From an uncultured Pelagibacteraceae bacterium (GTDB lineage Bacteria; Pseudomonadota; Alphaproteobacteria; Pelagibacterales; Pelagibacteraceae): a stretch of 58,403 nucleotides of DNA. A program made the translations under genes and the position numbers. Each line of letters starts with the position of its first letter. The first letter of the stretch is position 1. The notes beneath the pieces are model-generated. The model did not search any database. It had not been told where the DNA came from and worked only from the letters and a program-made list of their open reading frames with translations. The stretch is from assembly GCA_902567235.1 (NCBI GenBank), contig CACFLX010000009.1, forward strand, positions 1 to 58,403. The letters are read 5' to 3'. Below, one piece after another: positions 56,282 to 56,818 of the stretch.

Positions 56282-56728
56282 TTATTCAATTTCAATAAGT
56301 TTTTTCTTTTTGTACTCTGGTACAATTCTTTCACAAGTTATTGTCAAAAGACCATCTTTAAGCTCAGCACCACCTACTTTTACATCATCTGCAATTGTAA
56401 ATGATCTAGCAAATTGTCTTTGAGAAATACCCTTATGAATAATCTCACCGTCTTCATTTTTATCTTCAGACTTATTAACTTGTTTTGTTCTTACAGTTAA
56501 TAAATTGTCTTCAAATTCAACCTCAACATCCTTTTTGTTAAAACCGGCAAGAGCAACTTCTATTGCATATTTGTCCTTTCCAGCTTTTCTTATGTTGTAT
56601 GGTGGATAGTTTGATTGCATGCTCAAACCTCCATTGCCCAACATACTTTCAAATTGGTCAAACATATCGTCAAAACCAATTGAAAAAGGTCTTAATGAGT
56701 TGAATATAGATAGATCCTTACTTGTCAT
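56282..56728 (-). CDS. Small heat-shock protein (Hsp20/IbpA-like)
   Basis: Holdase chaperone, 148 residues. The alpha-crystallin domain covers about 40-130 with DKYAIEVALAGFNKKDVEVE, a GISQRQFARSF segment and VGGAELKDGLLTI. The chosen ATG at 56728 has GGAGG 5 bases upstream; a TTG-type extension to 56749 would run across the Shine-Dalgarno and is rejected. The leader contains a sigma-32-like promoter and an RNA-thermometer hairpin, so expression is probably heat-induced at two levels. Confidence 0.95.
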   Translation of the reverse strand: MTSKDLSIFNSLRPFSIGFDDMFDQFESMLGNGGLSMQSNYPPYNIRKAGKDKYAIEVALAGFNKKDVEVEFEDNLLTVRTKQVNKSEDKNEDGEIIHKGISQRQFARSFTIADDVKVGGAELKDGLLTITCERIVPEYKKKKLIEIE

Positions 56729-56733
56729 TATAT

Positions 56734-56783
56734 CCTCCTTTGTTAGCAAGGTTATTTAATGCAAGCCCCATTAGGCGACTTAC
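56734..56783 (-). promoter_or_regulatory. ROSE-type RNA thermometer in the hsp20 leader
   Basis: On the minus strand CCUUGCU (56745-56751) pairs with the Shine-Dalgarno AGGAGG (56734-56739) across the loop AACAA, with one bulged G between U-G and C-G pairs. This UUGCU-against-AGGA pairing is the hallmark of ROSE elements of alpha- and gammaproteobacterial hsp20/ibpA genes. An upstream hairpin (56761-56783) has 9 pairs, a bulged G and a UAAU loop. Together they fill the whole predicted leader. Confidence 0.8.
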
Positions 56784-56790
56784 AAAATTT

Positions 56791-56818
56791 ATATGGGTAT
56801 TAATTTTATATTTTCAAG
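56791..56818 (-). promoter_or_regulatory. Sigma-32 (RpoH) type promoter of hsp20
   Basis: On the minus strand CTTGAAA (56812-56818) and CCCATAT (56791-56797) are 14 bases apart, matching the RpoH consensus CTTGAAA-N13-15-CCCCATnT except for the first C. The -35 box overlaps the stop codon of the upstream ptrB gene. The start site is expected near 56784, exactly where the leader hairpins begin. Confidence 0.7.

Follow-up and report, generated by a model that had tools for sequence, protein, structure and literature searches.

A predicted ROSE-type RNA thermometer in the hsp20 leader of SAR11 bacteria, with leaders of similar build before marine phage hsp20 and bacterial rpoH

ROSE-like elements occupy the 5' untranslated regions of small heat-shock genes and have been described with two to four hairpins over about 60 to more than 100 bases (PMC3669281, PMC4166951, PMC11342760; statements on these and the papers cited below refer to the accessible parts of their text). 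According to a 2014 review they always occur with small heat-shock genes (PMC4166951); later papers add ABC transporter genes, and rpoH is absent from their accessible parts (PMC11342760, PMC12857270). The hsp20 leader analyzed here shares with the short ROSE-like element of Pseudomonas ibpA its two hairpins, a stable hairpin I, a free AUG, a U(U/C)GCU sequence set against the Shine-Dalgarno sequence in hairpin II, and the combination of a small heat-shock gene with sigma-32 control (PMC3669281). Compared by description only, the SAR11 leader differs in being AU-rich (G+C 0.37) and in carrying the bulged-G motif in hairpin I as well. The E. coli ibpA ROSE element likewise has UCGCU before AGGAG in its last hairpin and possesses an additional middle hairpin that is absent from the SAR11 leader; its 5'-most hairpin (L393), which sits about 85 bases before ibpA, presents by eye a CGCC-UGAU-GGG core with a bulged G like that of SAR11 hairpin I. 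The ROSE-like and ROSE-G elements found before ABC transporter genes also place U(U/C)GCU or CUGCU over the Shine-Dalgarno sequence and differ in the genes that they precede (PMC11342760, PMC12857270).

Phage-borne RNA thermometers have been described for lambda cIII (PMC4166951), before blyA of prophage SPbeta, where the element is a fourU thermometer (PMC10586365), and before a sigma-70 gene in Caudoviricetes (PMC11342760), so that the idea of a thermometer carried by a phage is not new; the accessible descriptions of these cases neither assign them to the ROSE type nor place them on hsp20. Six words that we searched for are all absent from a paper on cyanophage Hsp20 (PMC3827213). For SAR11, a structured-RNA study of Candidatus Pelagibacter ubique covered intergenic regions longer than 100 bases, and the terms hsp20 and ROSE are both absent from its accessible text (Meyer et al. 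2009, PMC2704228). Our literature search, conducted mostly without subscription journals, found no report of a ROSE element in Pelagibacter, of a ROSE element before rpoH, or of a thermometer on a marine phage hsp20.

The window, that is, the whole stretch of 58,403 bases that was analyzed, carries on its minus strand, from 56818 to 56726, a predicted promoter, two hairpins, a Shine-Dalgarno sequence and the hsp20 start codon, in that order (Table 1). The hsp20 product matches Pfam HSP20 (PF00011) with 64 bits (E 1.5e-17) and is the single match to this family in the whole 1.13 Mb assembly, which is about 90% complete. We assign the genome to SAR11 on the strength of its gene content, its size and its kinship. 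The same-strand upstream neighbor of hsp20 is an S9 peptidase gene whose stop codon falls within the predicted -35 box, leaving no spare DNA at this locus.

Table 1. Features of the hsp20 locus in the window, and matching loci outside it.
Feature	Position	Strand	Remarks
-35 box CTTGAA, predicted RpoH-type	56813..56818	-	Of 89 congeneric leaders, 74 have CTTGAA and 15 have ATTGAA
S9 peptidase stop codon TGA	56814-56816	-	Inside the -35 box CTTGAA of hsp20
-10 box CCATATAA, predicted	56789..56796	-	16 bases from the -35 box
Hairpin I	56760..56784	-	10 pairs, bulged G at 56776, loop UAAU
Hairpin II, proposed thermosensor	56734..56751	-	CCUUGCU (56751-56745) against AGGAGG (56739-56734)
Shine-Dalgarno sequence AGGAGG	56734..56739	-	AUG five bases downstream; GGAG in 86 of 86 leaders
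hsp20 coding sequence	56282..56728	-	148 aa; ATG at 56728-56726
rpoH leaders with two-hairpin build			L165, L166, L169, L179, L181-L183; 15 among L259-L277; 37 among L313-L358
Matched pelagiphages and methylophage			Pelagiphages Mosig, HTVC008M, HTVC103P, HTVC115P; methylophage Melnitz-2
Matched cyanophages			P-RSM1, S-RIM2, P-HM2, ACG-2014f, S-SM2, P-SSM4, S-CAM8, Syn33
Matched phage loci			Named phages L281-L286, L288, L290-L295; 33 contigs among L191-L255

Matches to hsp20 were found in 118 of the 151 congeneric genomes (121 matches altogether), and leaders were taken from 90 of these matches, comprising the 30 best and 60 others picked by hand. Promoter counts cover 89 of these leaders, L091 being left out; for structural comparison 86 distinct leaders were kept, after removal of L091, whose hsp20 is diverged, and of three repeats of identical leaders. 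L091, from genome G057, represents a second hsp20 type (54% identical) on a small contig and has another ROSE-like leader (44.8 bits); this contig is probably a stray piece of another alphaproteobacterium.

A TTGAA box is present in all 89 leaders, and the best -10 match lies 16 bases further on in 86 of them, with 7 or 8 of the 8 letters of CCATATAA in 63 leaders, as compared with 2.5% of shuffles. We take the pattern formed by TTGAA, 16 bases and CCATATAA to be the alphaproteobacterial RpoH consensus, and an rpoH gene is present in the assembly. In 75 of the 89 leaders the distance from the end of the -10 box to the bulged G of hairpin I is exactly 12 bases. Since a start 5-8 bases after the -10 box lands at the foot of hairpin I, the 5' end of the RNA is predicted there, and this is where the hsp20 transcript should begin.

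Hairpin I is formed by pairing of 56784-56777 with 56767-56760 and of CC (56775-56774) with GG (56769-56768). The original prediction had assigned it a bulged G and nine pairs; the bulged G is present and the pairs number ten, the outermost U-A falling just outside the stretch then considered. In hairpin II, CCUU (56751-56748) and CU (56746-56745) pair with AGGAGG around a bulged G at 56747 and enclose a five-base loop. That the minus-strand hsp20 leader contains two hairpins, and that CCUUGCU covers AGGAGG with a bulged G in the last of them, had likewise been predicted and holds both in the sequence and in the folding proposed for 4-30 °C, in which the two-hairpin fold is the minimum-energy structure for leaders of 55, 60 and 66 bases throughout that range. 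From 37 °C the same folding of the window leader predicts an altered hairpin II. An 83-base stretch yields a z-score of -0.92, with 36 of 200 shuffles equally good, and at 37 °C it prefers another fold, which covers the AUG; a 113-base stretch prefers an alternative fold below 37 °C as well. Given this z-score and these shuffles, folding of the single sequence is no evidence for the element, and we rejected its statistics as proof.

The leader presents the traits by which ROSE elements are recognized: a U(U/C)GCU sequence imperfectly paired with the Shine-Dalgarno sequence in the 3'-most hairpin, here CCUUGCU with AGGAGG, two hairpins within about 55 bases from the predicted start to the AUG, hsp20 as the downstream gene and, at the level of sequence, a sigma-32 promoter. 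The proposed ROSE-type identity gains further support from the presence of UUGCU in 86 of 86 leaders and from covariation in hairpin I. The compact two-hairpin form had been put forward as a novelty, and in this respect the proposal goes too far, as the same form had already been described in Pseudomonas, with 61-62 bases (PMC3669281). Taken alone, the SAR11 leader adds another member to a known kind of ROSE element, in a two-hairpin form known from Pseudomonas.

A search with the Rfam ROSE models, suggested as a check on this identity, returned no match at the gathering score. The best Rfam match, to ROSE_3 (RF02523), reached 21.1 bits (E 0.025 on 251 bases), short of the gathering cut-off of 43, in a full-model alignment that places both hairpins and both unpaired Gs in register; for ROSE and ROSE_2 no match was listed for the window leader even at E 10. 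As a control, E. coli ibpA passes ROSE_2 (RF01832) with 100.4 bits. Among 20 relatives, ROSE_3 gave 27.1 and 25.2 bits in two and no listed match in the other 18, and Rfam gathering scores were also missed in 20 further loci; in phage Melnitz-2 ROSE_3 gave 34.1 bits. As a class-wide probe ROSE_3 was discarded, having matched 5 of 190 genomes at E <=0.01, none of them over the cut-off and SAR11 not among them. Because the gathering scores are not reached, Rfam-based annotation overlooks this leader.

When the 86 distinct congeneric leaders are aligned with MAFFT, neither CUUGCU nor the core of hairpin I, GCC...GGG, varies. Within hairpin I, 93.7% of cells are paired and 6 of the 10 pairs display two-sided changes, and RNAalifold recovers this hairpin unaided from the same alignment. 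For the whole structure we counted 51 two-sided cells (11.4 in shuffles) and obtained a covariation score of 0.234 (0.149 in shuffles), neither value being attained in any of 500 shuffles, and the score drops at every slide of the structure; the number of pairs with two-sided changes, six, is attained in 126 of the 500 shuffles and becomes seven at slide +1. The original prediction was to be given up if close relatives lost the UUGCU pairing and showed no covariation. UUGCU is kept in all 86 leaders, and the alignment of SAR11 hsp20 leaders revealed compensatory changes in hairpin I.

Hairpin II presents no two-sided changes in this alignment, and 82.9% of its cells are paired, a figure that is lowered in part because MAFFT misaligns runs of A ahead of the Shine-Dalgarno sequence; in the 86-leader SAR11 set this hairpin was not recovered by RNAalifold on its own. 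With one of its strands fixed as the Shine-Dalgarno sequence, its core is hardly able to covary. In the bulged-G register, exactly one of two flanking pairs, the outer one before CUUGCU or the inner one after it, is present in 76 of the 86 leaders, with both in 7 and neither in 3: hairpin II holds its number of pairs near constant while the individual pairs change. About three changes suffice to explain this pair swap on a tree of 30 genes (2-4 in bootstraps; well-supported branches force one), and the 76 leaders are therefore not independent.

A covariance model built from the 86 leaders (R1) scores the window site, which is among its own training sequences, at 80.9 bits, and the next best match in the assembly at 20.6 bits (E 0.086). 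Two of these weaker matches (<=20.6 bits) were inspected and dismissed as not leader-like. Since the R1 site stands alone in the assembly, and in view of the invariance and covariation in relatives, the structure is more than chance.

Across the order, R1 matches 177 of 247 genomes, and those listed all belong to the same family as the window genome. The 177 include G180 (E 0.006), whose match we consider probably false, as the genome has no hsp20 match. Among 20 of the 70 match-less genomes, 17 have no hsp20 match, one has hsp20 fragments only and two are sister-family genomes with a diverged gene; many assemblies in the order are incomplete, which bears on these absence counts. In the sister-family hsp20 leaders (L154, L155) a UCGCU hairpin lies over the Shine-Dalgarno sequence, and the upstream parts are different. 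Eleven further leaders, L125-L135, precede hsp20 in genera of the family other than that of the window, and R1 matches all of them with E values of 5.3e-7 or lower; two of them (L132 and L135, from one such genus) read UCGCU instead of UUGCU.

In the class, 14 of 289 genomes match R1. The 11 matches outside the family include six directly before hsp20 and three directly before rpoH; L164, which is terminator-like and precedes an ABC-F-like gene, and L167 were rejected as spurious. In a broader alignment, comprising 31 leaders, 94.8% of cells are paired and 11 of 16 pairs, two of them in hairpin II, show two-sided changes; these figures lean toward the structure because the alignment was fitted to it. 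The model built from this alignment (R2) matches 30 of 385 genomes, in part its own training set, and gives no match in E. coli ibpA up to E 5. New R2 loci include six before hsp20, four before rpoH, two weak ones before dnaK and three without gene assignment. By NCBIfam, six tested proteins are RNA polymerase factor sigma-32 and two are DnaK; the L169 protein scores below the RpoH equivalog cut-off. At the two dnaK loci (L187 and L190, E 0.003 and 0.008) CUUGCU stands upstream of AGGAG directly before the gene, making dnaK a possible further target of a ROSE-type leader. By eye, a lone hairpin-I-like motif with a bulged G, GAUGCC...GGGUC or UUGCC...GGGG, lies near the start of a ClpB-like gene (L170) and of rpoH in Methylobacterium/Beijerinckiaceae (L381, L385, L388).

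The rpoH loci were explored in two overlapping sets. In the order of genome G457, R2 matches 23 of 43 genomes with 24 matches, of which 17 precede rpoH as judged by the protein start, including 14 of the 15 at E <=0.01; the remaining seven, six of them at E 0.02-0.05 and one at E 0.002, were set aside as chance. One of these RpoH proteins, used as the query against a named collection, retrieved 80 relatives, the closer ones being mainly uncultured alphaproteobacteria, many from rumen or gut, and R2 matches 39 of the 80 at E <=0.1, every time just upstream of rpoH. Among these 39, L385 and L388 are doubtful because UYGCU is missing, and in L348-L350 the motif reads UAGCU or UGGCU. Applied to a MAFFT alignment of 24 of the 39 leaders, with no structure given, RNAalifold predicts the lower six pairs of hairpin II, four of them with two-sided changes such as UUAUAU/AUAUAA and GUCAU/AUGAC, and does not predict hairpin I. 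Of all the comparative data gathered here, this covariation supports the Shine-Dalgarno hairpin best. A ROSE element before the rpoH of SAR11 itself was considered and dropped, none being seen by eye in 17 rpoH leaders, 12 of them from the SAR11 order.

A search with the window Hsp20 protein retrieved 68 viral contigs and 507 phage records, 463 of the latter named Synechococcus, Cyanophage or Prochlorococcus and six Pelagibacter. R2, which like R1 contains no phage sequences, was given 51 phage loci, namely 15 of the named records and 36 of the viral contigs. It matches 46 of them (13 named records and 33 contigs) at E 2.8e-11 to 0.005, once per locus and at the hsp20 start, with no other match at E <=0.05 in the 171 kb of phage loci. 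Some of the viral contigs may be cellular pieces, which the named isolates are not. R2 missed cyanophage S-B68, Vibrio phage PWH3a-P1 and contigs L238, L243 and L249. In S-B68 (L287), inspection by eye shows UUUUACGCU...AGGUAAAA before the hsp20-like gene, which would form a divergent bulged-G hairpin over the ribosome site. In P-HM2 (L285, 493-567) the R2 match lies inside the annotated hsp20, ahead of a later ATG, so that the annotated start is probably too far upstream.

In the fitted alignment of the 43 distinct phage leaders, 90.9% of cells are paired, two-sided changes occur in 11 of 16 pairs and the covariation score is 0.542, as opposed to 0.204 when shuffled. With an unfitted alignment of 21 phage leaders RNAalifold finds hairpin I, five of its eight pairs covarying, and does not find hairpin II. 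TAAATA, which we take to be the core of the T4 late promoter, is found in 33 of the 43 leaders within 45 bases upstream of the bulged G, compared with 13% of shuffles; in 24 leaders 8-12 bases separate its end from that G. Several other phage leaders have sigma-70-like boxes by eye; the phage hsp20 leaders thus sit behind TATAAATA-like or sigma-70-like promoters. The promoter therefore differs between host and phage, being RpoH-like in SAR11, while the hairpins appear to keep their place at the presumed transcription start in both. In the Hsp20 tree, the proteins of Mosig, HTVC008M and 13 contigs group with five SAR11-family proteins (95/89), those of HTVC103P and HTVC115P fall outside the SAR11 group, and the cyanophage proteins are separate (99/94). 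Long branches meet in this tree, L125 and L244 are doubtful for odd length or branch and L047 was dropped as too short; we use it solely to show that some phage proteins fall together with SAR11-family ones.

The computed temperature response is gentle. Over the 86 leaders, the pairing of the Shine-Dalgarno sequence calculated with ViennaRNA falls from 0.84 at 4 °C to 0.76 at 37 °C; with shuffled upstream parts it falls from 0.65 to 0.59, and 24% of shuffles match the real leader at 15 °C. When 27 coding bases are added, pairing between 4 and 37 °C goes from 0.65 to 0.44 for the 86 leaders and from 0.79 to 0.43 for the window leader. The leader of E. coli ibpA, folded alone, still has a pairing of 0.96 at 42 °C, down from 0.98 at 37 °C. 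Because this proven ROSE element also barely melts in the calculation, computed melting neither proves nor refutes a thermometer, and we dropped sharp melting as a proof, the SAR11 curves being shallow.

The G that forms the bulge is invariant in the 86 leaders, and the bulge itself is predicted for the window leader at 4-30 °C. Folded in isolation, window hairpin II weakens from -7.1 kcal/mol (4 °C) to -5.6 (15 °C) and -2.9 (37 °C), and from 15 °C up it adopts a shifted register, CCUU/AAGG, in which the bulge is gone. The commoner SAR11 hairpin II has six pairs at 4-37 °C with the G facing a G; the computed folds of phage and rumen rpoH hairpin II keep the bulged G. Energies of -4.1 to -7.6 kcal/mol are given for the Pseudomonas hairpins (PMC3669281), possibly calculated at another temperature. 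Set beside these values, the SAR11 energies make it plausible that the working point is shifted toward cooler water.

Taken together, these data suggest, with a probability that we put at roughly 85%, that the hsp20 leader, under RpoH control, is an RNA thermometer of the ROSE type in its short version with two hairpins. By analogy with described elements we infer that the leader represses translation in the cold and melts on warming, and likewise its working temperature and the part played by hairpin I. RNA polymerase with RpoH (sigma-32) would start the hsp20 RNA at the foot of hairpin I, as the promoter position suggests, and in phages a phage promoter would make the hsp20 RNA instead. Hairpin I, with its own bulged-G motif (UCGCC against GGGG), would form at once at the 5' end, prevent wrong pairing between the upstream half and hairpin II and perhaps protect the 5' end of the mRNA; judging from the similar core in E. 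coli ibpA, it may be an old part of ROSE elements. Hairpin II would sequester the Shine-Dalgarno sequence in an imperfect helix of UUGCU and AGGAG with one bulged G and one U-G pair. In cool water it would stay closed, with translation low, and on warming or heat stress it would open and free the Shine-Dalgarno sequence.

Other readings of the same structure have to be weighed against this one. The hairpins might serve mainly as a binding site for Hsp20, which would repress its own translation until unfolded clients titrate the protein away. E. coli IbpA binds and represses its own 5' UTR (PMC10474464, accessible text), and hairpin I is more strongly conserved than closure of the Shine-Dalgarno sequence would require; rpoH, however, whose product is not Hsp20, also has leaders of this shape, which disfavors self-repression as the only reason for the structure, and the conservation of UUGCU would be left unexplained. 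We consider such a main function unlikely, and self-repression could in any case operate alongside a thermometer. It is more doubtful again that hairpin I only stabilizes the mRNA and hairpin II is only a weak brake, heat control being exerted by RpoH alone. A plain brake needs neither the fixed CUUGCU (86 of 86) nor the held number of pairs. The predicted start at the foot of hairpin I does suit a 5' protective stem, such as has been proposed for Pseudomonas (PMC3669281), and the computed melting of the SAR11 leaders is shallow, but it is shallow too in the working E. coli ibpA ROSE.

The folding of longer stretches points to an arrangement in which the start codon is hidden, UAAUGACAAG being paired with GCUUGCAUUA from the 3' arm of hairpin I. 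At 37 °C the 83-base stretch has this alternative as its lowest-energy structure, and in the 113-base stretch, which includes bases upstream of the predicted start, the AUG pairing of 0.98 at 4 °C has dropped to 0.41 by 37 °C. In relatives, however, the 3' arm varies together with the 5' arm (CUUGCA, CUAGCA, AUCUGC, CCUUUU) whereas the start AUGACAAG is nearly constant, so that by eye the pairing is not kept, and we regard it as very improbable that this is the working fold. The z-score of the single sequence would suit a chance folding of an AU-rich leader with a strong Shine-Dalgarno sequence; against it stand the covariation, the invariance, the family-wide presence and the recovery of the same structure before phage hsp20 by a model naive to phages, and we give chance practically no weight.

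With the hsp20 leader read as a ROSE-type thermometer, its new part lies outside the window, in the leaders of phage hsp20 and of rpoH; these outweigh the SAR11 element and raise its worth beyond that of one more ROSE element of a known kind. The compact, start-linked leader with a bulged-G motif in both hairpins is probably a portable heat-control cassette, placed before SAR11 hsp20 behind an RpoH promoter, before hsp20 of SAR11 phages and cyanophages behind TATAAATA-type T4-late-like or sigma-70-like promoters, and before rpoH in gut and rumen alphaproteobacteria. Models R1 and R2 are ready to annotate the leaders that Rfam misses. If true, a ROSE element on rpoH would put an entire heat-shock regulon under a ROSE-type thermometer, and it would be a second, much simpler solution than the long rpoH thermometer of E. 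coli. A thermometer on marine phage hsp20 would link the phage chaperone supply to water temperature. SAR11 bacteria are among the most abundant cells in the sea and have few regulators. A thermometer on their sole hsp20 would let a streamlined genome sense temperature without a protein, and would provide a direct handle on the response of SAR11 to warming.
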